Source: a virus. Taken from it: a DNA stretch of 20,234 bases. The notes under the pieces are model-generated. The model was given only the letters and a program-made list of their open reading frames with translations. It did no database searches and was not told the origin of the DNA. The translations under genes were made by a program, and so were the position numbers. Numbering within the stretch: the first letter of the stretch is position 1; every line of letters starts with the position of its first letter. Shown here piece by piece: positions 1,030 to 20,234 of the stretch. The stretch is from the IMG/VR virus record IMGVR_UViG_3300032304_000654, positions 1 through 20,234 of that record; one strand, given 5' to 3'.

Positions 1030-1201
1030 CGCTTGGCTTGTGAACTACGGACCCGACTGGGTATCAGAGGATGAGATAAAGACCGATCCGTTTTTCTGGC
1101 AACAACTGCACAAGCTAATGTCTCGCGGGTTTCTTGAGTCTCAGTTCATGCTTTACACAAACAAGTTGCACTACAGGTTTATTCCGTATGGAGATAGTTG
1201 A
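992..1201 (+). CDS. Small hypothetical protein, possibly half a winged helix (69 aa)
   Basis: ATG at 992, TGA at 1199-1201. It overlaps the upstream gene by 38 nt and the helicase by 14 nt. The sequence has ADAWLVNYGPDWVSEDEI, then a helix with FWQQLHKLMSRGFLES and a strand pair ending LHYRFIPYGDS. The last part resembles the recognition helix plus wing of a winged helix, the same layout as in its upstream neighbour. No strong ribosome-binding site is visible, so translation probably depends on the upstream gene. A frameshift product joining the two proteins cannot be excluded but is not needed to explain the reading frames. Confidence 0.5.
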   Translation: MTTTNIPLVNIADAWLVNYGPDWVSEDEIKTDPFFWQQLHKLMSRGFLESQFMLYTNKLHYRFIPYGDS

Positions 1202-2750
1202 CAACAAGGCGCTGCTTTTCAGGACTCGCAATCCTCAGAAGTACAGCATCATTCCTAAGCACAAGGTGCTTGAGCAAGATGAAGACGGCATCTATCAAGT
1301 GGCTGTGTATTGGGGGCTGGACGAGGCTAGGGTGCTGCGCAACCTTGGCGTCAAAGATGTGCCGTCCCCGATCACAACAAGGTACGGCTGGCCCGGGCGG
1401 TTCAAACCCATGCAACATCAGATTGAAACGTCCGCGTTCTTGACGCTGTATCGCAGAGCTTTCTGCTTTAACGATCCGGGCACAGGTAAAACTATGTCCG
1501 CGTTGTGGGCTGCTGACTACTTGATGGAGCGCGGGTACGTGCGCCGTGTGCTTGTGCTGTGTCCACTATCTATTATGCAGTCGGCGTGGGTGCAGGATAT
1601 AAACAACTCCATCATGCACCGTAGCGTCATAGTCGCCCATCACCAGCAAGCATCGCGCCGGATTGAGATGATCCAGAAGGACTACGAGATCGTCATCACC
1701 AACTACGATGGGCTGGCGCTGATTGCACAAGAGATCAACAACGACGGCAGGTTCGATCTGATCATTGTCGATGAGGCGAACGCATACAAGAACTCAACCA
1801 CGCGCAGGTGGAAAGCACTGGCGTCAATCATTAAGCCGGACACCTACCTGTGGATGATGACGGGTACGCCTGCGTCGCAGTCACCCGTGGATGCGTACGG
1901 TCTGGCTAAGCTGGTCAATCCCAGCGGCATACCCAAGTTCTTGACGGCGTGGCGTGAGCAAGTGATGAACAAGCTCACCATGTTTAAGTGGGCACCGAAG
2001 CCTGACGCCGCGCAACAAGTGCACAAGGCGTTGCAACCAGCGATTAGATTTACGAAAGCCCAGTGCCTCGATCTGCCGCCCGTTGTCACGGTCACACGCG
2101 AAGTGCCCATGACCCCACAGCAGAACAAGTACTACAAGCAACTCAAAGATCAGTTGATGTTCTATGCCGCCGGGGAGACCATCAGCGCAGTCAACGCTGG
2201 CGTGGCGGTGAGCAAGCTGTTACAGATAAGTTGTGGAGCAGCATACACAGACGACAAGGAAGTGGTGGTCTTCGATGCCAGCCCACGCATGGCTGTGCTG
2301 GAGGAGATCATGGAGGAGACGGATCGCAAGGTGCTGATCTTCGCCATGTTCCGTACAAGTATGGACAGCATTGCCGCGCACCTAACCAAGCACGGGTATG
2401 CCAACGCACAGATCAACGGGGATGTGAGCGCCAGCAAACGCAACAAGATCATCCACGACTTCCAGAACACGGACAGCATCCGGGTGCTGGTCATGCAACC
2501 ACAAGCGGCGGCGCACGGGCTGACGCTGACTGCCGCTGACACGGTGGTGTTCTTTGGTCCGCTCATGTCTGTTGAGATGTATACACAGTGTATAGCCCGG
2601 GCAGATCGTAAGGGACAGGACTCAGACAAGGTGACTGTGGTTCACATCCAGAGCAGCACCATCGAGCGCGAACTGTTCTCGGCTATGCGCAACAAGGTGA
2701 ACGACCACACCCTGCTGGTCAAGTTGTTCAGCGAGGAAGTCAAACGATAA
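1188..2750 (+). CDS. SNF2-family superfamily 2 DNA helicase/ATPase (520 aa)
   Basis: ATP-driven DNA translocase of the DEAD/SNF2 class, presumably acting in phage DNA replication or recombination. I chose ATG 1188 over the longer open frame starting at 1134, because the residues before it are only the out-of-frame shadow of the upstream gene. Motifs by residue: PMQHQIE (Q-like, 74-80), Walker A DPGTGKT (96-102), VLCPLSIMQSAW (motif Ia, about 123-134), TNYDGL (171-176), motif II VDEAN (194-198, Asn where DEAH or DEAD is usual), motif III TGTP (225-228), an AAHGLTLTAAD motif V region, and motif VI QCIARADRKGQ (467-477). The two RecA-like lobes are complete and 520 residues is a normal length for compact phage SNF2 proteins. 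It overlaps the previous gene by 14 nt and has only a weak AGG upstream. Confidence 0.88.
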   Translation: MEIVDNKALLFRTRNPQKYSIIPKHKVLEQDEDGIYQVAVYWGLDEARVLRNLGVKDVPSPITTRYGWPGRFKPMQHQIETSAFLTLYRRAFCFNDPGTGKTMSALWAADYLMERGYVRRVLVLCPLSIMQSAWVQDINNSIMHRSVIVAHHQQASRRIEMIQKDYEIVITNYDGLALIAQEINNDGRFDLIIVDEANAYKNSTTRRWKALASIIKPDTYLWMMTGTPASQSPVDAYGLAKLVNPSGIPKFLTAWREQVMNKLTMFKWAPKPDAAQQVHKALQPAIRFTKAQCLDLPPVVTVTREVPMTPQQNKYYKQLKDQLMFYAAGETISAVNAGVAVSKLLQISCGAAYTDDKEVVVFDASPRMAVLEEIMEETDRKVLIFAMFRTSMDSIAAHLTKHGYANAQINGDVSASKRNKIIHDFQNTDSIRVLVMQPQAAAHGLTLTAADTVVFFGPLMSVEMYTQCIARADRKGQDSDKVTVVHIQSSTIERELFSAMRNKVNDHTLLVKLFSEEVKR

Positions 2751-2757
2751 ACAGCAC

Positions 2758-2786
2758 TTGCATTCCCCAGAAGTTACCTGTAAACT
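2758..2786 (+). promoter_or_regulatory. Candidate sigma-70-type promoter
   Basis: TTGCAT (2758-2763), a 17-nt spacer, then TAAACT (2781-2786), lying in the 62-nt gap between the helicase and the next gene. The sequence TG directly precedes the -10 element. Transcription would begin just before the strong AAGGAGAAG ribosome-binding site (2801-2809). This is the only gap in the left block long enough for a full promoter, which supports the call. The boxes match the consensus only partly. Confidence 0.4.
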
Positions 2787-2812
2787 GTCAAACACTAGAC
2801 AAGGAGAAGTAG

Positions 2813-3232
2813 ATGCCTGACGAAGCCAACGATTTGGCGGTTGTCCCTATGGACAAACTCGCCAAGGTGTACCGTAAGATGGCGGCACGGATTCAAACAC
2901 TCACCTCTGAGTACGAGAATGCTGTCGAGGAAATCAAGATTCAGCAGGAGCAGATCAAGAATGCTCTGAAGGATCAGATGCTTGCCCTTGGGCTGGCGTC
3001 TGTGCGCACGACCGAAGGTACCGTAACACTGTCAACCAAGACACGTTACAACACGCAGGACTGGGATGCCTTCAAGCAGTTCGTTATTGCCAACGATGCG
3101 GTCGATCTTCTGGAGAAACGTATCCATCAAACCAATATGGCTTCGTTCCTTGAAGAGAATCCCGGTTCAGTTCCCCCCGGACTCAACTCCGTGCAGGAGT
3201 ATGGAGTCTCTGTTCGCAAACCCACTAAGTGA
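2813..3232 (+). CDS. Coiled-coil phage protein of replication operon (139 aa)
   Basis: ATG at 2813 with a strong AAGGAGAAG three bases upstream; TGA at 3230-3232. Residues about 12-60 form a long charged helix (KVYRKMAARIQTLTSEYENA onward) likely to be a coiled coil. A beta-hairpin follows (ASVRTTEGTVTLSTKTRYN), then a helical C-terminal part with DWDAFKQFV and LEKRIHQTNMASFLEENPG. The architecture 'helix, GxxSVRTxxGTxxLST, DWDxFxxFVxxN, LLExRVxxTAVxxYLEENGxLPPG' recurs in phage proteins next to single-strand-binding proteins. The function is not established. It resembles Siphovirus Gp157 in layout, but I do not assign it there. It ends 6 nt before the next gene. Confidence 0.65.
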   Translation: MPDEANDLAVVPMDKLAKVYRKMAARIQTLTSEYENAVEEIKIQQEQIKNALKDQMLALGLASVRTTEGTVTLSTKTRYNTQDWDAFKQFVIANDAVDLLEKRIHQTNMASFLEENPGSVPPGLNSVQEYGVSVRKPTK

Positions 3233-3238
3233 GGCTGT

Positions 3239-4150
3239 ATGTCTAACGTAACTATGTTCAATCCGGCACAAGTACCCGCTCACGTTCGTGCCCGTGGCGA
3301 GCTTTCAGCCATGGCTAAGTCCTTGGCTGGCGGTGCAGTCGGTGGCGGCAAGCGCATCTCCATCAAGGGCGGGGTCTTCCGTCTCATGGCTGGTGGTAAG
3401 GAAGTAGCGGCTATTGAGGATCGCTTTCTTGATGTCGTGTTTGTCAACGCCGCGCCTAACATTGGACGCACCTTCTATGCTAAAGCCTACGACGGAGACG
3501 CTAACGCGCCTGACTGCTGGTCTGCTGATGGCAAGACGCCAAGCCCTGACTCAAGTAACAAGCAGCATGACCAGTGCGATGGGTGCCCCAAGAACATCGC
3601 TGGTTCTGGTCAGGGTAATTCTCGCGCTTGCCGTTTCCAGCAACGTCTTGCTGTTGTGCTTGCTAATGATGTGGGCGGGGATGTTCTCCAGCTAGCGCTA
3701 CCAGCTACGTCGCTGTTTGGTAAGGGTGATGCGGACCAGCGCCCACTCCAAGAGTACGCGCGCTACCTTGCGGCACAGAATGTAGATCCCGCTGACGTTG
3801 TTACTCGCATGAAGTTCGACACCAAGAGTGAGTCGCCCAAGCTCACGTTCAAGGCTATGCGCTGGATTGATGCGGACGAGCAAGTGACCATCAAGTCGCA
3901 GAGCGAGTCGGACGATGCGGTCAAAGCAATCACCATGACGGTTGCCAAGATGGATAACGTCAAAGCTCCGGCCCCGTTGATGGCTACGCCGCGCCCTGCC
4001 CCCAAGGCAGAGCCGAAGAAGACCGAGGCGCTGGTTGCAGACGAAGCTGAAGAGCCAGTCGTGCGCAAGGAAGAGAAGAAGCCTAGCGCAGTACCCACAA
4101 AAAAGAGTAGCCTAGCGGCTATGGTTGACGACTGGGACGACGAAGCTTAA
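3239..4150 (+). CDS. Candidate single-stranded-DNA-binding protein (303 aa)
   Basis: ATG at 3239 with GAGG (3231-3234) close upstream; TAA at 4148-4150. Residues 40-85 look like beta strands (ISIKGGVFRLMAGGKEV, DVVFVNAAPNIGRTFYAKAY). Four cysteines (C93, C113, C116, C131; spacing CX19CX2CX14C) could bind one zinc inside an OB-like fold, as in T4 gp32-type proteins. The last 75 residues are Pro/Ala/Lys/Glu-rich and disordered-looking. They end in the acidic aromatic tip DDWDDEA, comparable to the acidic tails by which single-strand-binding proteins recruit partners. Its position between a helicase and a primase-helicase fits that role. The assignment rests on architecture and context, not on a recognised signature. 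Confidence 0.55.
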   Translation: MSNVTMFNPAQVPAHVRARGELSAMAKSLAGGAVGGGKRISIKGGVFRLMAGGKEVAAIEDRFLDVVFVNAAPNIGRTFYAKAYDGDANAPDCWSADGKTPSPDSSNKQHDQCDGCPKNIAGSGQGNSRACRFQQRLAVVLANDVGGDVLQLALPATSLFGKGDADQRPLQEYARYLAAQNVDPADVVTRMKFDTKSESPKLTFKAMRWIDADEQVTIKSQSESDDAVKAITMTVAKMDNVKAPAPLMATPRPAPKAEPKKTEALVADEAEEPVVRKEEKKPSAVPTKKSSLAAMVDDWDDEA

Positions 4151-4183
4151 AGGGAGGGGGGCGCAAGCCCCCCAAATATTCAC
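4150..4183 (+). promoter_or_regulatory. GC-rich hairpin between ribosome-binding site and start codon
   Basis: GGGGGGC-GCAA-GCCCCCC (4156-4173) forms a perfect 7-bp stem closed by a GCAA tetraloop. The purine-rich AAGGGA (4150-4155) lies directly before the stem, and AAATATTCAC then ATG (4184) follow. Unfolded, the ribosome-binding site is 28 nt from the ATG, which is too far. Folded, the gap is 10 nt. The stem is followed by only a short A/T run, so intrinsic termination is possible but weak. Confidence 0.5.
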
Positions 4184-4462
4184 ATGGCATATTCACAGAA
4201 ACTTATTGACGAGGTAGCCGCCGCCCCCAAGACGCTGGGTAACCAGCTAGGGCGGTGGGCTATTCACCGGGACTTCTCCGTCCTGCGGGTGGCGCACATT
4301 ACTGGCGCGTCTCGACAGTCTGTATACAACTGGTTTAGTGGTGGAGAAGTTTTCGTGGCCTACAAACCTATAGTGGAGGCGTTGATTAAGATCTTAAAAG
4401 CCAACGTCGATCCTGACGTTGCGCACGAAGAGGCATGCAAGGCATTCAAGATAAACCCGTAA
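4184..4462 (+). CDS. Small helix-turn-helix DNA-binding protein (92 aa)
   Basis: ATG at 4184, TAA at 4460-4462. Residues about 33-52 (VLRVAHITGASRQSVYNWF) form a Cro/XRE-type helix-turn-helix; 'ITGASRQxVYNWFxGG' is a pattern I recognise from phage regulators of about 90 residues. The N-terminal MAYSQKLIDE and a C-terminal helical stretch (VEALIKILKA) flank it. Likely role: a transcriptional regulator of the early region or a replication accessory protein. Its only ribosome-binding site is across a stable hairpin, so its synthesis may be tuned by RNA structure. It is 12 nt upstream of the primase gene and probably shares its transcript. Confidence 0.7.
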   Translation: MAYSQKLIDEVAAAPKTLGNQLGRWAIHRDFSVLRVAHITGASRQSVYNWFSGGEVFVAYKPIVEALIKILKANVDPDVAHEEACKAFKINP

Positions 4463-4474
4463 CTGGGAAAGCTA

Positions 4475-7387
4475 ATGACACTACCGCTGAGATTTCTAGC
4501 GGAGGTTCTGCCGTCCCCGGGAGATGGGTACTATTGCGCGGTAGAGCTTTCAAACACTAAAGAACACATCTTTGTAAAACAAATTGAGGAGATTGACCAG
4601 CCTGTAGAAGACTGGTTGCAGAAGCGATACGACATTTACTTTGCGCTAGCCACATTCAAGACGGCAAGTAATCGCCGCGCAACGAATGCTTTTCAGATCC
4701 GTTCGTTCTTTCTGGATATGGACGGGTACGCCTCACGCAAGGAGGCGGCGCTATCACTGGACGCATTTCTTGAAAAGACAGGGCTGAATGGTCTCGGCAT
4801 GCCATGGTTGGTTAACTCTGGCGGTGGGCTGCATGTGTATTGGCCGCTTACCGAGCCGGTCGATGTTGTTGACTGGAAGCCAGTAGCTGAAGATCTCAAA
4901 CGCCTGTGCAAACAGGAAGGTCTTCGTATCGACATGACTGTCACGGCTGACGCCGCACGGGTGCTGCGCATCCCGGGCACGATGAATTTCAAGAAGAAGT
5001 ACCCAACACCACGGGAAGTTAAGCTGCTGGCTGAAGGTGACAACTTCGCCTTTGCTGACATTGTGAAGTGCATTGCCGATCACCTTGTCGAACCCAGCCC
5101 AATGGGGGCACCGCCGCTACAACTCCCCGGTACGCGCCCATCCAAAGATACTAGCGCGGCTAAGCTGACTCTGATATCTAATAGCGCGACATCGTTTGCG
5201 CTGATGGAGAAGAACAGCGACTGTGCTCAGATCAAGTTCTACCGTGACAACGCGGCTGATGATGGGATGGAGCCACTATGGCGCGGGCTTCTGTCGTGGG
5301 CAAAGGTTTGTGAAGATGGCGAAGAAGCTGCCCGTGAGCTTAGCGCCCTGCACCCATACGATGAAGATCGTATGCGCAACAAACTTGCGGAGATCAAGGG
5401 TCCGTACCCATGCCGCAAGATGGACAGCGAGAACCCGGGTGTGTGTACATCGTGTGTACACGCAGGAGCAATCACGAATCCGCTAATCATGGGGCGCGTG
5501 ATCAAGACCGACAACACAGAGAAAGAGATACAGCTAACAGCCGAGCAGATCCTTGAAGCAGACGAGGATGAGGAGGAGTTGCCGCTCGCCTCAACGCTAT
5601 CTGTTATCAGACCAGAGCCGCCACGTGGGTACAGTTATGGCGTGAACGGTGGGGTATACGCCGAGCGGGAAGAGAAGGATGAGCAGACCAAGAAGAAAGT
5701 AAAGAAGACTGTGCAGATACTGCCATACGATTTGTTTGTGGTTCATATTCTTAAACAGGACTCCGATCATCTGGTTAACTTAGCCGCGACACGACCCGAA
5801 GGTACAACGATTATTAACATGCCACAGAAGGCTGTGGTCAGCAAAGAAGAGACGGTCAAGTGGTTGGCTAATCAGAACGTGCTGGCTTCATTCGGGCAGA
5901 ACAACGACAAGAACTTGTTCGACTACGTGCGGGCTTCTGTTGAACAGGCGTCACTCACAAAGAAAGTACTGGTTGTTCCCAAACAATTTGGTTGGCAAGA
6001 AGACGAGTCGTTTGTCTACAACGAGCGTGTGTTCTACAAGAACGGTGCGGTAGCGCAGATACCCATGCCCGGGCTTGAGAACATCAACCGGAACACGTGC
6101 AGTAAGGGGACGCTTGATGGGTGGCGCGATGCTTGGACCACGATCTTTATCAAGCGCAAGATGTATGACCTGCTGGCCTGTGCCATGGACAGCTTCGGTT
6201 CTATCCTCATGCAGTTCACACAGTTTGAGGGGTTCGTCTGGCACCTTGGTGGCAAGACATCTGGCACAGGTAAGTCTCTGACACTCAGCGCCAAGGCTGG
6301 GGTTTGGGGGCATCCGGTGCGTTACCGCACAGGTAAGGGCACATCTCCTGTAGCCATGCAGAACCGCGCCGGTATCTTGAACAGTATGCCTCTGCTGATT
6401 GATGAGATCACCAGCACTCAGCGCGACAACATGGAGTGGGCACCGGGGTTTATCTTCAACCACACAGAAGGTCAGGGCAAGGAGCGCATGGAGTCTAGCG
6501 CCAACAAGGAGCGGATCAACGACACCAACTGGCACTCGACTGTGACCATGACTTCCAACGAGGTGCTGACTGACTACATGGCCGGTGCGAGGAAGTTCAG
6601 TTCCAACGGCGAGCTTCGCCGGTTTCTGGAGTGGACGCCCAGTGTTGCGTTGCAGTGGAACCCAGAGGAGTTGGAGGCGGTTCGTGCTTTGAAGATGCAC
6701 TTCGGTGTAGCAGGAGAAGCGTTTATCCGCTGGGCGGTAAAGAACCAATCAACCGTCAGGCGGTTAGTTGAAGACACGTACAACCAACTCAAAGTTGAGA
6801 TGTCTTTCTCTGGGGATGAGCGTTACTGGAACGCGGGTACAGCATCAACTGTAGCGGCTTGCATTCTTACGAGCAGACAGTACAGCAACATCATTGATGT
6901 GCCTGTGCTCAACATTATCGACTCGCTCAAGGACAAGGTTAATCACTCACGCTCAGTGATAAGGAACAGCATCCGTACTGCGGAGGATGTTCTCAACGCC
7001 TACACCCGGGACAACTATGGCGGGTTCATCGTTCTCAAGCGCCAGCCAAACGGCGAGACTGCCGCAAGCTGGGGCGACGGGTCCATGTTTAGCGGTCCTG
7101 TTATCCGGTCGAAGATCCTTGGGCGGGTTGAGTTTGAGGTCAGCAAGGAAGGCTATGTGGACTACTTCATTGAGGAGCAGTTACTCAAGGAGCATTGCGT
7201 GAGTATGAGCTACGGCTACTCCGACTTTAAGTTTGAGCTTAGCAAGAACTACGTGGTGACGGTCGTCAAGAAGGACATGCTGGCACGAACCAAGGGTCCG
7301 CTGCTACGGGTCAACGCTCTACACATCTGTCGTAAGAAAGCGCATGAAGCTGAAAATTCACTACCCGTGGAAACAACTGAGACGTAA
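4475..7387 (+). CDS. Primase-helicase: AEP-type primase plus DUF927 ATPase (970 aa)
   Basis: Bifunctional replication protein. Residues about 50-185 form an archaeo-eukaryotic-type primase: FFLDMDGY (78-85, metal-binding D81 and D83), NSGGGLHVYW (114-123, nucleotide-binding His120), and RIPGTMNFKKK (165-175). A Cys/His cluster (C313, C324, C327, H329) follows a helical domain and resembles the zinc-binding linker of phage primases. Residues about 375-800 match DUF927-type P-loop ATPases: FGWQEDESFVYNERVF, Walker A GGKTSGTGKS (592-601), Walker B LLIDE (640-644), and TMTSNE (691-696) with ELRRFLEW (713-720) as sensor and arginine-finger candidates. The acidic stretch at 361-370 is a linker. It is complete. 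It probably primes and unwinds DNA together with the SNF2 helicase and the candidate single-strand-binding protein. Ribosome-binding site GGGAAA is modest. Confidence 0.88.
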   Translation: MTLPLRFLAEVLPSPGDGYYCAVELSNTKEHIFVKQIEEIDQPVEDWLQKRYDIYFALATFKTASNRRATNAFQIRSFFLDMDGYASRKEAALSLDAFLEKTGLNGLGMPWLVNSGGGLHVYWPLTEPVDVVDWKPVAEDLKRLCKQEGLRIDMTVTADAARVLRIPGTMNFKKKYPTPREVKLLAEGDNFAFADIVKCIADHLVEPSPMGAPPLQLPGTRPSKDTSAAKLTLISNSATSFALMEKNSDCAQIKFYRDNAADDGMEPLWRGLLSWAKVCEDGEEAARELSALHPYDEDRMRNKLAEIKGPYPCRKMDSENPGVCTSCVHAGAITNPLIMGRVIKTDNTEKEIQLTAEQILEADEDEEELPLASTLSVIRPEPPRGYSYGVNGGVYAEREEKDEQTKKKVKKTVQILPYDLFVVHILKQDSDHLVNLAATRPEGTTIINMPQKAVVSKEETVKWLANQNVLASFGQNNDKNLFDYVRASVEQASLTKKVLVVPKQFGWQEDESFVYNERVFYKNGAVAQIPMPGLENINRNTCSKGTLDGWRDAWTTIFIKRKMYDLLACAMDSFGSILMQFTQFEGFVWHLGGKTSGTGKSLTLSAKAGVWGHPVRYRTGKGTSPVAMQNRAGILNSMPLLIDEITSTQRDNMEWAPGFIFNHTEGQGKERMESSANKERINDTNWHSTVTMTSNEVLTDYMAGARKFSSNGELRRFLEWTPSVALQWNPEELEAVRALKMHFGVAGEAFIRWAVKNQSTVRRLVEDTYNQLKVEMSFSGDERYWNAGTASTVAACILTSRQYSNIIDVPVLNIIDSLKDKVNHSRSVIRNSIRTAEDVLNAYTRDNYGGFIVLKRQPNGETAASWGDGSMFSGPVIRSKILGRVEFEVSKEGYVDYFIEEQLLKEHCVSMSYGYSDFKFELSKNYVVTVVKKDMLARTKGPLLRVNALHICRKKAHEAENSLPVETTET

Positions 7388-7532
7388 CCAAGCGTTCTTT
7401 GTTCCCGGGTTAGACACAGATAAAGTGCGGGAGGCGACGCTACGCGCAAGCGTAGCGCAGCGAATGCGTCTGCTGGCTACCCCGGGAATAAAGGACGGGC
7501 TTATTGGCGTGCTGTTTGTGCGTAAGAGGTAA
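7344..7532 (+). CDS. Small conserved-type phage protein (62 aa)
   Basis: ATG at 7344, TAA at 7530-7532. It overlaps the primase by 44 nt and the converging giant gene by 32 nt. The product starts MKLKIHYPWKQLRRNQAFFV, then has LDTDKVREATLRASV and ends GIKDGLIGVLFVRKR. The layout 'MKLxIxYPWxxLxxxxxFFVPxLDxxKxRexgLraA...GIKdGxLGVLFxR' is one I recognise from small phage proteins of unknown function, so I consider it a real gene despite the overlaps. A perfect hairpin (7438-7457) lies inside it. It is the last gene of the rightward operon. Confidence 0.65.
   Translation: MKLKIHYPWKQLRRNQAFFVPGLDTDKVREATLRASVAQRMRLLATPGIKDGLIGVLFVRKR
7438..7457. other. Perfect 8-bp hairpin with GCAA loop
   Basis: CGCTACGC-GCAA-GCGTAGCG lies within the 62-aa gene and 44 nt beyond the 3' end of the converging giant gene. 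The loop and closing pair are the same C(GCAA)G as the hairpin at 4156-4173. There is no T-run on either side, so it is not a classical intrinsic terminator. It could stabilise an RNA end or slow ribosomes. Confidence 0.45.
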
Positions 7533-10500
7533 GCATTGTCTGCGCCAGTCTGTTCTGCGCAGCTATGATGTTCTTGATTTGCGCATCCTTTTGTTCAGTA
7601 GTCAGGTTAGGCCGCGCCTCAATACTACGGCGCAGTTCGGCCAGCTTACCGATCTTGTTCTCAACAGCACCAGCCATCTGCGACAGGTTGATGTCCGATC
7701 TGTGCGAAGCCAAGTAAGCGTTTGCGTCTTCCGTACGCCCTTCACCCAACATCTTCTTGTATGTCTTGCGCGCCATATCAATCTCTTTCATGCGGCGGTA
7801 CGCTTCATCAATAATCCCACGCCCTTCTGCTGGCTGGAACAACGTACCAATAACACGCATCTCACTCAAATTCTTGGTGCGCTCTTGTACTTCCTGCCCT
7901 TTGCCAAACGGAAGCACCGCCGCAAGGTCGGAGATCAACACACCAAGCGCACCGAAGTGCCCACGGATCAAGTGATCAATCTGTACTGGCGACAACATGT
8001 TGGCCTTGCCAAGTAGTTCAGCGCCAGCAGAAGTGCCCGGACGTATGCGCTCACTCTTTTCTACAGCAAGCTCACGCGCTGATTCAATCGGCCCACCAAA
8101 AAAGGACGTGCCCAGAAAGACTTCGACGCCCGGTTTGAGTGCGGCAGGTATTGGCGTGAACGGGTTCGATTGCTCAAGCAGTTTGAAGATTCCGCGTGCC
8201 GCATTCTCTGATGTGTCGTTACCTTTGAGCGTGTTGTATATCGCCTCCGGTACGGCTTTGAAGATAAGCCCGATCTCAAACGGAATCGGCACACGAATTA
8301 GATCGCCTTTTGGATCAAACGGATTAACAAGGAACCAGTTGCCGTAGCGCTCTTCAGGCTTGGCTTTCTTGTACCGCTCATCATCCTCCATCAACGCCGC
8401 GTATGCCACGGTGCTAGCCGACATCAGCACAGCGCGCTGGAAAAACTTGGAGCGGATACGCATCTGCTGTTCAAACGGCATCTTGCCCTGTGAACTACGA
8501 TACAGAACATCCAGACCCTGAAGCTGCGCGTTAAGGAAGGGGACGACTGCCGCCAATTGTTGCAAACTTGCGCTAGTACCCCGGCGCGTAAAGTTCTGCG
8601 ACTCCAGCGTACGAAGCAGAGCTTCCTGTTCTGTCAGTCCCTTCCTGATTGAGTCTTCGTATATTGTGATCCGGGTTGTGGCGTCGCCTGCCAGAGACAA
8701 TGCATCTAGCTTACCAATGAGCTTCGTCCAGCCGCTCTTGCCGGTGGCGATCTGTTCGACCAAACGCTGAGCGTCCTCTTTGCCTCCAGTAAAGACAAGG
8801 TTACTGATGGCACCGGACTCCATGAGTTTCTGTGCTTTTGGGTTTTTGCCAGCCGCTAGAGACACGCCTTGTTTTAAGGCACTAAGTACTGGAGTGCTGT
8901 CTATACCCGTGGTGAAGAAGGAGTTCATCGAGTCGCGCACAACTTGGCGCAGGGCATAGACTGGGTTGCGTGTTACGAACTTGCGCAGCACATCAGCCGG
9001 GAACCCCATCGCCCGGACAACTGAAGGGATCATTGTCTTGATACCTTCCATACCCTCGACAATCAGCTTTGCCGGTATGCCAAACTGATCCGTGTCGATG
9101 ACCACAACGTGGTCTTCGCCGTTCACCTTGAACCGGACGACATCTTTGCCAGACAAATTCTTCTTGGCTTTGCCAATGTAGCTAGCCATACCAAGCTTGT
9201 TCAGCACAAACGCTGACTCTTTGATTGCTTGGTTACGTAGCGCCATGTCCGTCAGCAAGAACGTGTTCTGCACGGCGCTATCAAAAATCCCCATGATCTT
9301 CTGCTCACCGCCAACCAGTTCCTGTAGGCGTGGCTCATCCTTGATGTTGCCAATCCGCACTGGCTTAACAGACTTGTCCAGATCCAGCAATAGGTCGCCG
9401 CTCTTACTGTCTACACGGTAGTACGGAACGTATGGTTTACTGTTGAGTTCTTGAGCAAGCGCTTTGGTGATCGTACCTGTCTGCTCCAAGAAGTTAATCA
9501 ACCCCTTGTTGTACTCAGTGTAGATAGCCTCTGCGTTCTTGAACGCGGTCAACGCCTTGGGATTGGCGTTGATGATCTGCATTACGTTGTTGTATTCCGT
9601 CTTGGCTTTTGCCGGGTTCCCTACGTTAACCTTGTCCCAGCCCACTACGTTGGCACGCTGCCCAACCATGTATACGGTGAAGTAGTTCTCCAGCTTGTCG
9701 GCTTTGATGCCAGACTTGTTGAGTTCTTTAGCTACGTCTTGCAGGTTTGCACCCTTGACGCTGCGGTAGATGTACTGAGCACCCTTGGCGGTAACGTCTT
9801 TGATTAGTTGCAACGGACCATTGGTCAGCGCCATACCCGCAAAGTGATTACGCTGCTGCCCCATACGCAAAGCAAACTGCACGTTGCCAGCTTCGGTTGA
9901 GTCGATGATGCCCTGCTCAAAACCTTTCTTCAGCGCTTCGTCCATGCTGGCGTAGCTATCCAACGCTTTCTGTCTGGCAGCAAGCCCAGCCGTACCCTTA
10001 AAGGTGTTGCGTAGTGCTTGGACGTTTGATGTTTTGCCAGCGACAAATGAGTCGTTGGCTGGTTTAGCAATATCAAAAACAGTTTCACTGCCTTCGTGCA
10101 GCATGGCGGGGGAAACAAAAGTTCCGTCCCCGCGTATTACAGAGTCAAGCCCACGATAAAGCGATGACTCTGAACGCAAGCCGAGTATTCTCTTGGCTCC
10201 TTCCAACATCTGACGAAGCCAGTTACGCGCACGCTCTTGCCAGCTTTCTGCTTGCGCGCGCTTTTGCAGAATTTCGGTGGCCTTGACTGCCCAGTATTCG
10301 CTTGCGTTGTACAAGTGGTAGTGTTCGTCGCGCGTCAGTATCCCGCTACTAAACATGGCGCGTGCATTTGACTGCGCCCTAGCGTCTCCGGTTTGAGCTT
10401 CCGCGATAAAGCGCAAAGCTCTTTCCCTTGCCATACTTAAAAGAACATCTTCCGGTATCTTCAAACCCCGGACGCGCTCAGCCAGCACCCGCATCATGTT

Positions 10501-13500
10501 TTGAGGATTGAACGGGTCGTAGTTCCAGCGGGTCTCCATGTAGTCAGACACCACATCTAAGGCGTTCTGTGTTGTGGTGCCGTTCTTTATCGCGGCCTTG
10601 ATTCGTGCATCTCTGTCTTTAACAGCGTCTGCTAGCGCTTTTGCAAATACGCGGGCGTACTGTCTGCGGATGCCGTTTTGTATGTCGGCAGGCATCATGC
10701 GTTCTGTGTGATGCAGAATCTCATGTACGGCAGTTGAGGTGTCGGCAGCACCCGTAAACAAAGTCATCAGTCGCCCAAAAGAACCGTACTGTCCAGCAGA
10801 TCCGGCTTCTTGTTCGTTTGCGGCGCGCACAGAAATGGCAAGATCGGTGGCTAAATGTGGGTTAGCGTTTAATAACCAAAGCGCAAACTCAACAACTGGG
10901 TACTCTAATGCACCAGACCTACGTGCCCGCAACAATCTTTCGCGGACCCAATCCTCACCGCGCTCACGCCCACGCATAACACGGTTGTATTCGTTTTGCC
11001 TGCGTTGTTCACGAGCGGCCATAACTCGTGCCATCAAGCCATCAATTCTAGCGGCGTGCTCTGCTTCTGTTATCCGCCCGTCTGCAAGCATTCGATCAAA
11101 GCCGCGCATGAGTTGCTCGACCCGAATGCTCGGTAATCTTGTGTGTGGATATGTTGCATACGGATCACCCGTTGGTGGCGTTGCAGGTTCGGCAGGCGCA
11201 GCTTCTGGCTCAACCGCCGGTTCAGCTTCCCGTTCAGGTGCCCGAGCAATAGGAGGGCCGCCCTCCTCAGCAGTTTCCTGCTCACGCTCTCTCGCTCTGG
11301 GTGCTTCTGGTCCGCGTAGTGCTGGGCCTTTCTCTTCTTCAACAGGCGCAGGTGCTGGCCCGGGGCCGAGTTCTTCTTCCTGCTCAACTACTTGCTTAGT
11401 CTCTGTTGCTGGCTCAACTGTGTCGCGGACAAGTATGTCTTCGCCGGTCTTGTTTTTGGCTACGTCGCCAAACAGGAAGTCTTGAATGCGCGCCGAGTTA
11501 TCTGGCACAACAAACAATGACGCCCCATCCATCTGCGTCAGGTGGTTATCCAGCAGGAACTTGTAGGACGCTTTGTCTACGTTGATGCAGCCAAAGGAGT
11601 ACCGGGAATCAGACGGATCTTCTTTGGCAATTGCTGCTGCACGCATCTTTGCGTCAGATTCTTTCAGCCAGATTGAGTGGAACAGCGTTGTGCTGTACTC
11701 ACCTTCAACTGCCTTATCCAGAACAAAAACTTTCTGGAAGTCGTATTCCCCAGCGGTGCGCATCTCACCCGGGCTACGCTGCGCGTCGCGCAATCCCATC
11801 TTAAACAACCCAGCCGGGGTAATCCGGTTAGCTTCAACTTCGTTGTTGCCACGGTAGAAATCCCCCATCGCTTTACCGATAAGGACTTTGTGGTCAAGGA
11901 TTGGCGTACCGTCTGGCGCAAACACAAACAACCGGGCGTTTGGTTTGTCTGCAATGATGAAGAGCTTGTTAGCTTCTTTAAGCCGCGCCTGTAGCGCAGG
12001 ATAGAGCGAAGCGTACGCTTGCTTGGCGTTCTCTGACATGCGTGCCGACACGGATGCTGGCACAGGTGCCATCACCTGCTGAACAACTGTGCGCACAACT
12101 TTCGGTGTGATGACTACAGTCTCTGGCAGGTTGATGTTTGTGGCGTTGAACACAAACGATGTGGCGATCAGCGCGTGGTACAGCTTGGCAATTATCTTGG
12201 CAATGCCTTTAGCCAATGCCGACAATCCCTTGCTGGCGTATGTCGCCAAGTCTGCGGACACACCAGAGATAAACTCAGCCGTGCCACGGGCAAACCCATA
12301 GTGGTTCTCAAGCGCGCGAGTCGCGCCTTCACCAACAGCAGGCAGCGCCTCTCGGATACTGTTTGATTCTTTGGTATTGGGTGCTTCTGCTGGGGCGGTT
12401 TGTTCTGCTGTTGCAGCTTGCGCTGGCTTAGCCCTTTTCAGTACAGAAGTCGTGTAATCGTTAACTAACTCTTTAAGCGCTTCCGCTTTAGTATCAGCAA
12501 GCCAAGTAGATACTCTGTACTTTTGTTCGTAAAAAAAATCCCAGAGCGGGCCGTCTACAACGTGCCAACCAGCTATACCACCAGTATTTGAGTCCTGCCT
12601 GTTTATTTCATGCACGCTGCCATCAGACAAAGTGACCCGGGTAAAAGTACCCTCTGCGTCTCTGATGGTTTTGGCTTCTTTGATTGTGATTTCGCCTTGC
12701 GGTTCAGTCGCGGCTTCGGTAGTTTCCTCTGCCACCGCAGCTTGCGCTGGACCTGCGGGCTTGACTACGCGCTTGCCCTTGCGTTGAACAACTGGCTCAG
12801 TCGCTGCGCCTTGAGTTTCAGTCGCTGCGCCTTGAGTTTCAGTCGCGGGTTCGACAGTTTCAGTAGGCGCAGGTGCAGCAGGGGCTTTAGCCACTCTACG
12901 AACTCTTGGCTTCGGTTCGGTTGCTGGCGCAACTGTTTCAGTTGGCGCAGCTTCAGCCTCCTGTTCGACTGGCTTCTTGCGTGTGTAAGTTATCTCGTTG
13001 CCAGATGTTGCGGCATCAAACTTTTCTGCCAGCGCTGCTTTGATGTCTGGATGAAGGTTTTTGGCAGTAGCGGTGGTCATTGACACCGACTGAACAGCTT
13101 GTGGCGCAACTACGTTTGTGCGGTAAACCCCACCGAAAGAAGTTGGTGCGAGCTTTTGTTTTGTGCCACTTACTGCGTCATGCCGAAACTCAATAGAAAT
13201 TGGCTTTCCTTCGCTAGCCAGCATGTCGCTGTTGTAGGCTGCATTGTCCGTAACTTCCAGTTTAACTGGGTGATAGTTGGCATCATTAACAAGAAGATTG
13301 CCCAGCATCATTGGCTGAGAACGATAGAACCAACCGCGTTGAATACCGCTAACTGTCGGGCCGAGATCAGATTTGATTGGCGTGATCTTCTCTTTAACCG
13401 AAGCTGGCGCTTCCGTAATTGACGGTGGCTTGACTGGCTCAACAGGAGTAACAGCAGCGGGTGGTTCTGCTGCTGCTTTTAGTTTGTCTGCGCCGTATTG

Positions 13501-15858
13501 AAATATTTGTTCAGCTTCCAAAACTGAATATTCGTCTGTGACTCCGTACTCACGCATCGTGTCACGAAGGTTTTCAAAATGCACATCGAGTGAATTTTGT
13601 AGCCCTCCCCAAAAAGCTTGTTGATCTTCTGCATCAGACAACAAAGTTTTTGCAAACTTAACCGCATCAAATTTAGTTTCCGCAGGCGCAGCAGGCGTCT
13701 CAACTACAGGCGCAGGAGTTTCAGTTTGCCCCTCAAACACTAGCTCATCGGCTGGAACAAAACTTTTATTGTTGTTGAATAAAACTTCAACATACTTCCT
13801 GCCAGACTTTGGATCTTCTACAGGTTGCCCTACAACTTCTACTGGAAAATCAGAATCCGCACTACGCCAAGTAGCTTTACCTACCGGAGCAGGTGCAGGC
13901 GTCTCAACCACAGGCGCAGCAGGCGTCTCAACCGCAGGTGCAGCAGGTTGGAGAGCAGCAAGCCGCGCTGCTAACTCAGGGGGGACTGGTTTACCGGCGG
14001 CTTGATACTGGGCCACCATGCCTTCGTACATTACACGGGCAGAGTCTTGGCTGCGCTGCGCATAATCTGCTTCTCTTTGCTCCGACGTTGCTGTTGTTGG
14101 CAGCGCAGGTTGGAAGTTAGTCGCAGCCGGTACAACAGGCATCTGCGTAATAGTCGCCGGTCCCGGTTCAGTATCGGGTACTGCCGCAGGCTCAGCTACG
14201 TTGGGTTGGAACCCAAGCCTCGGACCACCTATTTCAAACGGAGCAGCATTAGGGACAACTATTTCTTGTTCAGCTTGCGGCACAACTGTTGGCTGCTCAG
14301 CGCCAACTAACTGCCGACCCCCTTTGCTATCCATGGGGGTGACAATCCCGTTCTGCTCCATCTGCGCAATCAACCGCCCAGCACGGTTGTAACCGATCTT
14401 GAATTCGCGCTGAACCGCAGAGATTGATGGTCTTCCGGGGCCGCTAACAAAAGCAACAGCCTGATCGTACAAAGGATCGACTTGAAGTGTTGGCTCTGGT
14501 ATTGGTTGAACCGTTGGTGGTGCCTCTGCGGTTTGTTGCTCGACCGGCGGTGCTGGTACAACTGGTGTAGCAGGAGGAGCGGCTTGCGCTTCAGCAAGCG
14601 CTTGTTCTACCGTGCGCTGTGCCACCAGCGGATCAATGTCGCCCTTGCGTTCTTTGTACTCAGACAGCAGCGGGTTGTACGTTTCTTTGCGAAATTTAGT
14701 CGCTTCCCTGCTTGCCCGTTTCCAAGCATCAAACGCAGCGGGGTCAGCAGTTTCGTCTGGCTTTTTGCCAAGCGCTGCCTTCATGTCGGTAAGCTGCTGC
14801 TTAGCCGCCAAGTAGTTGTCGTTCAGACCCAGCAGGTACTGAGGGTCGTTCTTAATCGCGTCCTTCTTAGCTTTCTCTTCTGCTTCCAGCTTGCGCCGTT
14901 CAGCCAATGCTTTCTGGTTAGCTTCAACAGTCTTTGTATACTCGCCAAGTTCGTAGCGCCCCTGTTCTGCGCCACGTTCAAATCTGCGACCGACACCCCC
15001 AAACACACCACCAAGCAGCGCGCCATCAAACGCGCTGTCCAAATACTCAGCCCGAGCTTTGTCATCAGTAAGATTAAGTCCGGCTTGCATGCGCTCAAAA
15101 ACTTGCTGCGCAGTTTCTGTGATGGACTCAGCAGTGGCTGCTTTACCAGCGCTCAGCGTGTAATCAAGAACTTTTCTACGAACTGTTTGTTCGACTAGGT
15201 TTTGTGCGGCTTTGGCAGGTATACCAAGAATCTTGCTGACGCCGGGGATAAACGCATTACCAACAGCATCAAGGCCAGACTGAACAACAGCAGATCCAAC
15301 AGCGGCACCCAAGTCCGTGCGCTCAAGCGGTGTACCTTCTTTTACCTGCCGCGTAATATTTGAACCAGTAAATATTGGGATACCGGCGGCAGTCCCCGCC
15401 GCACCAGCAGCAAGCAGCGCAGGCAAACCAACAGGGGCAGTAGCGGCGGCGACACCGCCAGCAATAATTGACGGTACGGCGTAAGGTAAAGACGAACCGA
15501 TCCGCCCACCAAGATAATTAAGTGGGTCTTCTGAGAAGCGCTCTACTGGTCTGTAGGTTTTTGCCGCTTCCGCTTCACGTTCTCTTGCAAACTGTTCGGC
15601 CTCGCGCATGTTGCCGATACCGGCACGCGCGCCAGCGCGGGTAAGGTCTGCCTTTAGTTGTTCGTACCCACTAGAAAGCCCCGACATCAGACCAGACCCC
15701 GGCGGCGTAGTGGGTAGTGTTGGCTGTACCGGCGCCCGTGGGGTTATTCCAAACAGTTGGGGGTATGTATTTAGCGCCCTGCTCCACGCATCATCTGGAG
15801 TTTCGTTGGGGCGTACCTCTACTAACCGACCGTTTGGGAGTGGCAGATATTGGGGCAT
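7501..15858 (-). CDS. Giant polyvalent ejection protein: FtsK-gamma, L,D-transpeptidase, zincin-like, LPD38 (2785 aa)
   Basis: ATG at 15858, 3 nt after the upstream stop and with no ribosome-binding site, so translation is probably coupled; TAA at 7501-7503. Regions: N-terminal motif LPNGRLVEVRPNETPDDAW; hydrophobic Gly/Ala-rich 125-165; coiled coil about 310-405; FtsK-gamma-like winged helix 461-520 (SISAVQREFKIGYNRAGRLI); Pro/Ala linkers to about 655; an unassigned beta-rich part 819-961; amphipathic or membrane-active helices about 1205-1245; YkuD L,D-transpeptidase about 1297-1463 (H1394, YSFGCIN with C1424); charged linker to about 1570; zinc-protease-like HEILHH 1712-1717 with a possible third ligand E1854; helical 1945-2150; LPD38-like about 2290-2550 (RNPVYALRQVVRDS, SQNFTRRG). 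Size, modularity and position suggest a virion internal protein injected with the DNA that acts on the cell wall. Confidence 0.85.
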   Translation of the reverse strand: MPQYLPLPNGRLVEVRPNETPDDAWSRALNTYPQLFGITPRAPVQPTLPTTPPGSGLMSGLSSGYEQLKADLTRAGARAGIGNMREAEQFAREREAEAAKTYRPVERFSEDPLNYLGGRIGSSLPYAVPSIIAGGVAAATAPVGLPALLAAGAAGTAAGIPIFTGSNITRQVKEGTPLERTDLGAAVGSAVVQSGLDAVGNAFIPGVSKILGIPAKAAQNLVEQTVRRKVLDYTLSAGKAATAESITETAQQVFERMQAGLNLTDDKARAEYLDSAFDGALLGGVFGGVGRRFERGAEQGRYELGEYTKTVEANQKALAERRKLEAEEKAKKDAIKNDPQYLLGLNDNYLAAKQQLTDMKAALGKKPDETADPAAFDAWKRASREATKFRKETYNPLLSEYKERKGDIDPLVAQRTVEQALAEAQAAPPATPVVPAPPVEQQTAEAPPTVQPIPEPTLQVDPLYDQAVAFVSGPGRPSISAVQREFKIGYNRAGRLIAQMEQNGIVTPMDSKGGRQLVGAEQPTVVPQAEQEIVVPNAAPFEIGGPRLGFQPNVAEPAAVPDTEPGPATITQMPVVPAATNFQPALPTTATSEQREADYAQRSQDSARVMYEGMVAQYQAAGKPVPPELAARLAALQPAAPAVETPAAPVVETPAPAPVGKATWRSADSDFPVEVVGQPVEDPKSGRKYVEVLFNNNKSFVPADELVFEGQTETPAPVVETPAAPAETKFDAVKFAKTLLSDAEDQQAFWGGLQNSLDVHFENLRDTMREYGVTDEYSVLEAEQIFQYGADKLKAAAEPPAAVTPVEPVKPPSITEAPASVKEKITPIKSDLGPTVSGIQRGWFYRSQPMMLGNLLVNDANYHPVKLEVTDNAAYNSDMLASEGKPISIEFRHDAVSGTKQKLAPTSFGGVYRTNVVAPQAVQSVSMTTATAKNLHPDIKAALAEKFDAATSGNEITYTRKKPVEQEAEAAPTETVAPATEPKPRVRRVAKAPAAPAPTETVEPATETQGAATETQGAATEPVVQRKGKRVVKPAGPAQAAVAEETTEAATEPQGEITIKEAKTIRDAEGTFTRVTLSDGSVHEINRQDSNTGGIAGWHVVDGPLWDFFYEQKYRVSTWLADTKAEALKELVNDYTTSVLKRAKPAQAATAEQTAPAEAPNTKESNSIREALPAVGEGATRALENHYGFARGTAEFISGVSADLATYASKGLSALAKGIAKIIAKLYHALIATSFVFNATNINLPETVVITPKVVRTVVQQVMAPVPASVSARMSENAKQAYASLYPALQARLKEANKLFIIADKPNARLFVFAPDGTPILDHKVLIGKAMGDFYRGNNEVEANRITPAGLFKMGLRDAQRSPGEMRTAGEYDFQKVFVLDKAVEGEYSTTLFHSIWLKESDAKMRAAAIAKEDPSDSRYSFGCINVDKASYKFLLDNHLTQMDGASLFVVPDNSARIQDFLFGDVAKNKTGEDILVRDTVEPATETKQVVEQEEELGPGPAPAPVEEEKGPALRGPEAPRAREREQETAEEGGPPIARAPEREAEPAVEPEAAPAEPATPPTGDPYATYPHTRLPSIRVEQLMRGFDRMLADGRITEAEHAARIDGLMARVMAAREQRRQNEYNRVMRGRERGEDWVRERLLRARRSGALEYPVVEFALWLLNANPHLATDLAISVRAANEQEAGSAGQYGSFGRLMTLFTGAADTSTAVHEILHHTERMMPADIQNGIRRQYARVFAKALADAVKDRDARIKAAIKNGTTTQNALDVVSDYMETRWNYDPFNPQNMMRVLAERVRGLKIPEDVLLSMARERALRFIAEAQTGDARAQSNARAMFSSGILTRDEHYHLYNASEYWAVKATEILQKRAQAESWQERARNWLRQMLEGAKRILGLRSESSLYRGLDSVIRGDGTFVSPAMLHEGSETVFDIAKPANDSFVAGKTSNVQALRNTFKGTAGLAARQKALDSYASMDEALKKGFEQGIIDSTEAGNVQFALRMGQQRNHFAGMALTNGPLQLIKDVTAKGAQYIYRSVKGANLQDVAKELNKSGIKADKLENYFTVYMVGQRANVVGWDKVNVGNPAKAKTEYNNVMQIINANPKALTAFKNAEAIYTEYNKGLINFLEQTGTITKALAQELNSKPYVPYYRVDSKSGDLLLDLDKSVKPVRIGNIKDEPRLQELVGGEQKIMGIFDSAVQNTFLLTDMALRNQAIKESAFVLNKLGMASYIGKAKKNLSGKDVVRFKVNGEDHVVVIDTDQFGIPAKLIVEGMEGIKTMIPSVVRAMGFPADVLRKFVTRNPVYALRQVVRDSMNSFFTTGIDSTPVLSALKQGVSLAAGKNPKAQKLMESGAISNLVFTGGKEDAQRLVEQIATGKSGWTKLIGKLDALSLAGDATTRITIYEDSIRKGLTEQEALLRTLESQNFTRRGTSASLQQLAAVVPFLNAQLQGLDVLYRSSQGKMPFEQQMRIRSKFFQRAVLMSASTVAYAALMEDDERYKKAKPEERYGNWFLVNPFDPKGDLIRVPIPFEIGLIFKAVPEAIYNTLKGNDTSENAARGIFKLLEQSNPFTPIPAALKPGVEVFLGTSFFGGPIESARELAVEKSERIRPGTSAGAELLGKANMLSPVQIDHLIRGHFGALGVLISDLAAVLPFGKGQEVQERTKNLSEMRVIGTLFQPAEGRGIIDEAYRRMKEIDMARKTYKKMLGEGRTEDANAYLASHRSDINLSQMAGAVENKIGKLAELRRSIEARPNLTTEQKDAQIKNIIAAQNRLAQTMLTSYAQTARQ
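12797..12847 (-). repeat. Tandem 21-bp repeat in linker of giant protein
   Basis: Two perfect 21-bp copies (12797-12817, 12818-12838) plus the first 9 bases of a third. They encode a repeated heptapeptide (TETQGAA register). They lie in a Thr/Glu/Ala/Pro-rich linker between domains, so copy-number change would only alter linker length. Confidence 0.85.
13691..13943 (-). repeat. Three dispersed/tandem copies of a 24-25-bp linker repeat
   Basis: Near-identical copies at 13691-13715, 13895-13919 and 13919-13943 encode APVVETPA-type sequence in the giant protein. The last two are adjacent and differ from each other at a few positions. They bracket a short beta-rich segment (about residues 655-710), which suggests that segment was framed by duplicated linkers. 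Confidence 0.75.
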
Positions 15859-18009: not shown

Positions 18010-19902
18010 TTATCCGATTTGAGAGATCGCAAGCGCAGACAACCCGCGCGGCTTATGAACCATACCGCCTTTAGCTTGACCGGGAGCTTTTGAAAACAAA
18101 TTAGCCGCGCCCGCCGCAGCAGTACCAAAACCCACAAGTTGAGAAGCCAGACTTGGTGCTTGCTGATACTGCGCAGTCGATGTTTGGTAAAGCGGCAACC
18201 CACGAAGGAGGTTTGAGAACTGTCCGATCTGTTGCAGCGGGTAGTCTCGCTGGTTAATGAAATCGTTGTAGTTCTGGGTGAGTTGCTGCTGCACATAGTT
18301 CTGCGCCTGCTGCCCCAACAGATTCTGCGCGTTTGCAATGTTTTGCTGCTGCTGGCCATACACCCCACTCAAGTTGCCGTAGTTCTGCATGCCCTGCATG
18401 CCCGCTTGAAGCGCTTGTAAACCAAAGCCCGCACCGTACTGGTTGGCTTGTTCTTGCAACTGGCCAGCCCCCAGCCCGTACTGCGCAGCATTAGCTGCCG
18501 CTGCCATGCTCTGACCATAGCCGTATTGATTGGCAGCTTCTTGTTGTTGCTGCGTCGTCATCCCCGCTTGTTGATTAGCAAGCGCCGCTTGCAAAGCCTG
18601 TTGGTTGTACAGTTGTTGCACGCCCAGATTGGCGGCAAGATTTTGCTGCCCCGTAGTCAGCCCTGCCTGCTGGTTTGCAAGGTTGGCTTGCTGCTGCATC
18701 TGCGCGTTTTGCAGATTGGCTGCTTGCGTGTATTGCCCTTGTTGTAATCCGTACTGCCCAACCAATCCTTGGTTGGCTAACTGCTGTTGTTGTGCTAACT
18801 GCGCATTCTGTAGGGCAGTGTTATACGCTTGCTGTTGGTTAAACTGACCGGCTTGTAGCCCAGTCTGTTGATTGGCAAGGAGCGCCTGCATTCCGGCTTG
18901 TTGGTTTAGCTGCTGAGCAGTTAGCCCCGTCTGCGCACCAAGACCTTGTGTCTGGAGCAGGGCGCTCAGATTCTGTACCCCCGCTTGTTGTTGCACGCCT
19001 TGGTTGGCTAGGGCTGCTTGGAGTGCAGCTTGCTGCTCAGTATTAAACTGCCCTTGTCCTGATTGATATGCGGCCTGCAAACCTTGGGCTTGGATGTCGC
19101 CCTTTTGCGTAGCTAGATTACGTGCGGCTTCAGCGTTCTCAATTGCTTGCCGACCGCCACCAAAAGCCCCGGCTTGAGCAAACTGCGCACCGCGTTTAGT
19201 TGCTGCGATATCCGCTTGGCGTTGCGCTTCGCGTTGTTGTATGTCCACCACATTCTGCATGTAGGGAGACATGTACGCCGCCGCAGATCCGGGCTGTAAA
19301 AAAGACTTTGTTCCAACATTACCAGCCGCCTGCATCTGCAACTGATTGAGCGTTGGCGCAGTAACCTGCCCAGCTTGAAGCGCACTTACTGTGCTAGGGG
19401 TTACGGGAGTTGGAAAGTATTGAAGCTGCTGCCCATAGTAGTTAGTGGGCGCATTACCTAGTTGAGCAGCACTTGCCGTAGAGCCACTTACATTGGTTGG
19501 CTGCTGCATCTGAAAGAACTGCGCAGCCTGCGGACTCGCCGCTTGATAGTTAAACTGATTCGGTACGTATGCGTTGGGCGTTGTGTATTGGTTGCTGTAC
19601 GTGCTCGGGAGGTACTTAGACTGCCCCGCCTGCGCAGCCATGTTGTATACGTTTTGAAGCGTGTTACCCGCTTCAGCACCAAGCCCCATATTCTGGAGCG
19701 TGTTGTACGCCTGCTGACTAAGTACATCAGCATTTGCAAATCTAGGGAAATTGTAAAGGGGGGATTCTTTTATCCCTTTAATGACGGGCTGCGCATCCTT
19801 TGTACCGGGCGGTACTATGTTACCGCTGGCGTCTTTATATATTGGCCTATTGTTTGCGTCGAGTTGGTAGTCATATATAGCCCCATGCGCCATTCCAAGC
19901 AT
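18010..19902 (-). CDS. Gln/Asn/Ala-rich repeat protein, probable internal virion or tail protein (630 aa as read from this ATG)
   Basis: TAA at 18010-18012. The first in-frame ATG after an upstream TAA is 19902, but it has no ribosome-binding site; the natural start is more likely 19977 (see the separate entry). By residue from 19902: an N-terminal Tyr/Pro/Asn-rich part; 209-275 with YMSPYMQNVVDIQQREAQRQ, then AGAFGGGRQAIENAEAARN and GDIQAQGLQAAY, a pattern I recognise from environmental phage proteins of unknown role; 287-451, an 11-residue repeat array very rich in Gln, Asn, Ala and Leu; 545-571 with NDFINQRDYPLQQIGQFSNL and LLRGLPLYQ; and a C-terminal Gly-rich end with KGGMVHKPRGLSALAISQIG. 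Context between two other large low-complexity virion-type proteins suggests a structural or ejected protein. No enzyme motif is seen. Confidence 0.72.
   Translation of the reverse strand: MLGMAHGAIYDYQLDANNRPIYKDASGNIVPPGTKDAQPVIKGIKESPLYNFPRFANADVLSQQAYNTLQNMGLGAEAGNTLQNVYNMAAQAGQSKYLPSTYSNQYTTPNAYVPNQFNYQAASPQAAQFFQMQQPTNVSGSTASAAQLGNAPTNYYGQQLQYFPTPVTPSTVSALQAGQVTAPTLNQLQMQAAGNVGTKSFLQPGSAAAYMSPYMQNVVDIQQREAQRQADIAATKRGAQFAQAGAFGGGRQAIENAEAARNLATQKGDIQAQGLQAAYQSGQGQFNTEQQAALQAALANQGVQQQAGVQNLSALLQTQGLGAQTGLTAQQLNQQAGMQALLANQQTGLQAGQFNQQQAYNTALQNAQLAQQQQLANQGLVGQYGLQQGQYTQAANLQNAQMQQQANLANQQAGLTTGQQNLAANLGVQQLYNQQALQAALANQQAGMTTQQQQEAANQYGYGQSMAAAANAAQYGLGAGQLQEQANQYGAGFGLQALQAGMQGMQNYGNLSGVYGQQQQNIANAQNLLGQQAQNYVQQQLTQNYNDFINQRDYPLQQIGQFSNLLRGLPLYQTSTAQYQQAPSLASQLVGFGTAAAGAANLFSKAPGQAKGGMVHKPRGLSALAISQIG
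18550..19044 (-). repeat. Array of about fifteen degenerate 33-bp (11-residue) repeats
   Basis: From residue 287 to 451 the protein can be written as consecutive 11-residue units in one phase: LANQGVQQQAG (298), QLNQQAGMQAL (331), LANQQTGLQAG (342), LQNAQLAQQQQ (364), LANQGLVGQYG (375), LQNAQMQQQAN (397), LANQQAGLTTG (408), LANQQAGMTTQ (441). LANQ recurs at 342, 375, 408 and 441, exactly 33 residues (three units) apart. Hydrophobics sit at unit position 1 and often position 8, and Asn at position 3. This periodicity suits a right-handed or straight helical bundle. Confidence 0.75.
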
Positions 19903-19923
19903 GTTTTCAACATACGGCTGCGC

Positions 19924-19977
19924 TTAGGCGGGGATTGTTGTCTGCGTTTGCTGGATAACTTGTGGTTCAGCGGCCAT
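19924..19977 (-). CDS. 17-codon N-terminal segment in frame with the Gln-rich gene, ended by TAA
   Basis: ATG at 19977 with an excellent AAGGAAAG ribosome-binding site encodes MAAEPQVIQQTQTTIPA and then TAA (19924-19926). The frame is exactly that of the 630-codon gene downstream: after TAA it continues AQPYVEN and then Met 19902, with no other stop. Read through, the product would be 655 residues beginning MAAEPQVIQQTQTTIPA-x-AQPYVENMLG. That looks like one continuous N-terminus in which a single sense codon (perhaps Tyr, TAT or TAC) has become TAA. Alternatives are a real 17-residue leader peptide with reinitiation 21 nt later, or a sequence error. Confidence 0.6.
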   Translation of the reverse strand: MAAEPQVIQQTQTTIPA

Positions 19978-19980
19978 GAT

Positions 19981-19988
19981 CTTTCCTT
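19981..19988 (-). promoter_or_regulatory. Ribosome-binding site placing the Gln-rich gene start at 19977
   Basis: AAGGAAAG (minus strand), with AGGA 6 nt before ATG 19977. It overlaps the stop codon of the preceding gene. No comparable site precedes ATG 19902, so this site decides the start. Confidence 0.65.
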
Positions 19989-20234
19989 ATGCGGGCAGGA
20001 GACGTTCTGCGTTTGTGTTGGTGGCTACTTTGTTTTTACCAACTGTCTTGCGTCGTGCTCGCTGAACACGGTCCATCATTGCGTACAGTTTACGCGCACC
20101 AGCCTCGGTCGATCCGTTGCCAATTTCAGACACGATGCGTGCCGGTATAACAAACTCCCCATCGGCTAGCCGCGCGGGTTGGCGATCCCCAATAGTTGCC
20201 GGGATGTTGTCAGACACGCCATCACCCGGGCCGC
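19987..20234 (-). CDS. C-terminal part of phage structural protein with GPGxGxSDxIPA motif (5' end outside window)
   Basis: Open to the right edge of the window, so the N-terminus is missing; TAA at 19987-19989. An internal GTG at 20217 is not likely to be the start, because the frame continues upstream with GPGDG. The visible 82 residues contain GPGDGVSDNIPATIGDRQPA, then LADGEFVIPARIVSEIGNGS, then AGARKLYAMMDRVQRAR and a Lys/Asn tail. I recognise 'GpGtGtSDsIPAxLsDGEfVxxAxaVxxiGnGsxexGaxxLyxMm' as a recurrent C-terminal element of environmental phage structural proteins. Its molecular role is not known to me. It is the first gene visible in the leftward virion block and ends 9 nt before the next ATG. 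Confidence 0.75.
   Translation of the reverse strand, partial: GPGDGVSDNIPATIGDRQPARLADGEFVIPARIVSEIGNGSTEAGARKLYAMMDRVQRARRKTVGKNKVATNTNAERLLPA

Follow-up and report, generated by a model that had tools for sequence, protein, structure and literature searches.

An in-frame TAA near the start of a glutamine-rich phage gene is very probably a recent codon change private to one metagenomic record

Results

Gene content of the window and layout around the TAA

The window, meaning the whole stretch of DNA that was analysed, is an entire 20234-base metagenomic record of IMG/VR. Its plus strand carries an SNF2-type helicase and a DUF927/primase-helicase-like protein, while its minus strand carries a row of genes of structural type, namely the end of an upstream gene, a glutamine-rich (Gln-rich) gene, a 712-aa gene and the gene for a 2785-aa protein. 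In the related locus L001, the same gene row comes after endolysin, holin and a virion structural protein, and this position suggests that the Gln-rich product may be a virion protein. Neither the Gln-rich gene nor the 712-aa gene had a family in PHROGs or Pfam, and named phage records gave no match by DNA or protein. An AlphaFold model of the Gln-rich protein of L001 had a mean pLDDT of 44, too poor for a fold search.

The Gln-rich family, without a PHROG or Pfam entry, was seen to be large and very variable in length (about 370 to 1240 aa); an IPxYAxxYVExMLG motif at the start and a central segment, YMSPYMQNVVDIQQREAQRQADIA, are conserved in it. The 2785-aa protein (7501-15858, minus strand) contains both an FtsK gamma domain (residues 460-517, with E 3e-20) and LPD38 (residues 2493-2668); a YkuD L,D-transpeptidase match at 1300-1438 is weak, lying just under the Pfam cut-off. 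KOPS-like GGGNAGGG sites number 3 in the window where 2.0 would be expected, and so show no enrichment.

On the minus strand, a single frame runs from an ATG at 19977-19975 through 17 codons, encoding MAAEPQVIQQTQTTIPA, to a TAA at 19926-19924, and continues through AQPYVEN to a second ATG at 19902, from which 630 codons remain open to the TAA at 18010. Codons 11-17 and the stop read ACG CAG ACA ACA ATC CCC GCC TAA, and those that follow read GCG CAG CCG TAT GTT GAA AAC ATG CTT GGA. The leader and upstream start read cctgcccgcaTAAGGAAagatc ATG GCC GCT GAA CCA CAA GTT ATC CAG CAA, and the AAGGAA ribosome-binding site (19988-19983) overlaps the stop of the upstream gene. The C-terminus of that gene matches a 385-aa ORF located upstream of the Gln-rich homologue in L001. 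The coordinates of the initial annotation, and its claim that the same frame continues past the TAA, were correct on re-reading of the minus strand. The features of the locus are as follows.

19987-20232, minus strand: upstream gene, of which the window holds the 3' end (81 codons), terminated by TAA at 19989-19987 (open frame; relatives)
19983-19988, minus strand: AAGGAA, ribosome-binding site of the true start (anti-SD pairing; TAAGGA..ATG arrangement in relatives)
19927-19977, minus strand: codons 1-17 of the Gln-rich gene, encoding MAAEPQVIQQTQTTIPA (L314 shares 16 of the 17 residues)
19924-19926, minus strand: TAA, codon 18 (TAT/TAC (Tyr) or another sense codon in relatives)
19903-19923, minus strand: AQPYVEN, encoded by the 21 nt that separate the TAA from the internal ATG (no start codon; conserved segment)
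18010-19902, minus strand: remaining 630 codons of the Gln-rich gene, starting with Met26 (open frame; relatives throughout IMG/VR; 19902 a possible site of reinitiation)

Relatives carry a sense codon in place of the TAA

A scan with the 630-aa frame returned hundreds of related stretches, the best 80 of which were taken. The closest among these 80 (L001, L003, L004, L007 and L010) have their start codon at the position corresponding to 19977, preceded by gcccgcataaggaatagtc. Their proteins open with MADPQQI and show IPDYA opposite the IPA*A of the window, with TAC or TAT at the site. The same ATG start, again with TAC or TAT at the site, was found in L083, L084, L086, L087, L008, L009 and L035. 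The 17-codon peptide MAAEPQVIQQTQTTIPA is homologous to MADPQQI.QTQTSIPD in L001, L003 and others.

The nearest relative, L314, was found by scanning with a 140-residue query that begins at Met26, and aligns with the window without gaps at 93% DNA identity over 328 bases spanning the site. Its start is identical to that of the window (cataaggaaagatcATG, MAAEPQVIQQTQTTIP), the leader being base-identical from the ribosome-binding site through the ATG (MAAEPQVIQQTQTTIPDYAQPYVERMLG). It reads DYAQPYVERMLG, with TAT in place of TAA, and its ORF extends for at least 838 codons before running off the end of the locus. AQPYVEN corresponds to AQPYVER in L314 and to ARPYVEQ and similar segments in other relatives. 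Near relatives of the whole phage were obtained by a scan with the primase of the window. L251, a 46.8-kb record, matches most of the window at 86-90% identity, and a region on its contig (L312) carries a Gln-rich gene syntenic with that of the window, with TAT at the site in a gapless alignment and an ORF of 773 codons.

For a wider survey, a leader profile was run over six-frame translations with stops masked, and 116 loci were collected by patterns lying outside the site; a scan by an alignment pattern demanding Y, E or Q at the site was left out of the evidence on stops. Among 56 distinct N-termini, the site was occupied by Y in 35, E in 7, Q in 4, V in 3, F in 3, D in 2, W in 1 and a stop in 1, the stop being the window itself; the weakest rows are uncertain alignments (some Tyr/Trp lie one column off), and none of them shows a stop. 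The alignment of homologues proposed in the initial annotation, which expected Tyr, thus gave Tyr in 35 of 56 and another sense residue in 20 of 56.

This distribution bears directly on programmed readthrough, by which a fixed share of ribosomes would pass the UAA and complete the full-length protein, with the short product serving a regulatory role. The frame does continue, and the protein is conserved on both sides, as such a reading would have it; the stop, however, is not conserved, being found in only one of the 56 distinct N-termini, that of the window. Furthermore, the RNA fold of 19830-19990 is ordinary (z 0.43), with 127 of 200 shuffles folding at least as well. Conserved readthrough was therefore excluded, as the stop occurs in no relative surveyed, and readthrough programmed in this phage is given only a very slim chance.

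Searches of viral contigs with exact 25-base and 24-base patterns brought up no further record of this strain covering the site. Positions 1-11300 of the window, its helicase-primase half, are 96-98% identical to L242, L243, L244, L245, L248, L249 and L286. None of the 96-98% identical IMG/VR fragments searched extends to the Gln-rich gene.

The Gln-rich gene is assigned to the ATG at 19977

Pairing with the anti-SD was calculated at -6.2 kcal/mol for the ATG at 19977 and +0.4 for that at 19902. As roughly one in ten among 303 ATGs internal to the window pairs as well as 19977 does, the energy alone is unexceptional, and the start at 19977 is convincing because its leader, gcccgcataaggaa..tcATG, is conserved in relatives. 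Together, these results bear out a strong ribosome-binding site at 19977 and none at 19902, as originally noted.

The residues on either side of the TAA had been said to read as one sequence, and tblastn with the first 140 residues of the window agreed with this, its matches running across the stop in many relatives. The continuity is accordingly a matter of homology and not of chance. Homologues consistently beginning at the Met encoded at 19902 and lacking the leader had been named as what would refute the initial annotation. The opposite was found: their start corresponds to 19977, and both leader segments (AQPYVEN and MAAEP in the window) are present in them as one protein. Since relatives start at this position and have a sense codon at the site, the gene very probably begins at ATG 19977, with the TAA private to this record.

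The contrary reading takes 19902 as the true start and the 17 codons as a functional leader peptide coupling translation to the upstream gene. The 21-nt gap between stop and ATG does fall in the range where bacterial reinitiation is considered common (PMC5972666), yet the homologues hold both segments in one protein from the 19977 equivalent, ATG 19902 lacks a ribosome-binding site, and changes on either side of the TAA are mostly synonymous. A leader peptide is thus highly improbable, and a functional two-cistron arrangement is contradicted by the single continuous frame in relatives.

TAA remains a terminator in the window

Codon reassignment was also considered, whereby phage or host would translate TAA as a sense codon, at least in the late phase of infection. 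Known phages do reassign TAG or TGA in structural genes (PMC9523058). Against this, one internal TAA compares with 193 Tyr codons in the 6517 codons of the window, and TAA terminates 8 of the 12 listed genes, structural-type ones included (2750, 4150, 7387, 7501, 4462, 15862, 18010 and 19987), the other four ending in TGA. The first four of these had been cited, correctly, as true terminators in support of the view that general TAA recoding is unlikely, a view with which the counts agree. No tRNA genes were found in the 20-kb window, which is part of the phage genome. Reassignment of TAA is very unlikely, its probability verging on negligible.

Selection on both sides of the TAA

When the window was compared with L314, the codons preceding the TAA showed 4 synonymous changes and 1 non-synonymous change, and those following it, as far as the gapless alignment extends, showed 2 changes, both synonymous. 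The upstream gene, at 93% DNA identity between the same two sequences, showed 12 synonymous and 3 non-synonymous codon differences. That the changes flanking the TAA are mostly synonymous indicates a recent lesion and a leader under protein-level selection until recently; both sides were thus maintained as protein until very recently.

Sequence error or nonsense mutation

Taken together, the evidence makes it very probable that the TAA at 19926-19924 is a recent codon change private to this record and outside any decoding programme, in a gene that starts at 19977. Two candidates of the initial annotation, a nonsense mutation and a sequence error, therefore stay, while programmed readthrough is disfavoured, no relative having the stop, and the fourth, reinitiation at 19902, would be a mere consequence of a real nonsense mutation.

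How the probability divides between error and mutation is something we infer by judgement and not by computation. About half is assigned to an error of consensus or assembly not far from the end of the contig, slightly less than half to a real nonsense mutation in this phage, and a small remainder to everything else, so that error and mutation are about equally likely. On the side of error, the TAA sits 308 bases from the end of the metagenomic contig, and L007 (IMGVR_UViG_3300010885_002181) has an unshared lesion in the same repetitive gene, where a one-base frameshift at ~5600-5660 splits the Gln-rich homologue into a 448-codon ORF and a remainder in another frame. Two of the eight copies with both ends recognisable (the window and L007) are therefore broken, each differently. 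On the side of mutation, no other broken gene was found in the 6517 codons of the window, which speaks mildly against a generally error-rich contig. Comparison with the strains 96-98% identical over the first part revealed no broken gene assignable to the window.

If the TAA is real, ribosomes would load at AAGGAA and terminate after a peptide of 17 residues. A minority of them could start again at ATG 19902, 21 nt beyond the stop, which is possible because the gap falls under 30 nt, gaps of less than 30 nt from stop to start being regarded as suited to bacterial reinitiation (PMC5972666). The resulting protein would be missing its N-terminal 25 residues, the conserved IPxYAxxYVE motif among them, and reinitiation at an ATG without a ribosome-binding site would probably be weak. 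That a real, strain-specific UAA is tolerated through reinitiation or low-level readthrough, with virions mixing full-length and N-truncated Gln-rich protein, is accordingly considered improbable.

Discussion

In this record, gene callers would place the start of the Gln-rich gene 25 codons too late. The case shows that the N-terminal motif IPxYAxxYVExMLG is conserved in the Gln-rich family, and it should not be cited in favour of phages recoding TAA or reading through it.

Three known systems offer a comparison. Phage stop reassignment (genetic code 15, TAG to Gln; TGA to Trp) likewise places a stop inside a structural-type gene. Known cases, however, concern TAG and TGA (PMC9523058), whereas the codon in the window is TAA, occurs once, still serves as a terminator and is accompanied by no suppressor tRNA in the 20 kb. 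Bacterial termination-reinitiation (translational coupling) is resembled in the 21 nt from the stop to the next in-frame ATG; the relatives of the window, in contrast, lack a conserved two-cistron arrangement and have one continuous frame from the upstream ATG. The likeness to an ordinary nonsense mutation or consensus error in a metagenome-assembled phage lies in a single private stop, absent from relatives, within a conserved open frame. Nothing tested sets the TAA of the window apart from such a lesion.
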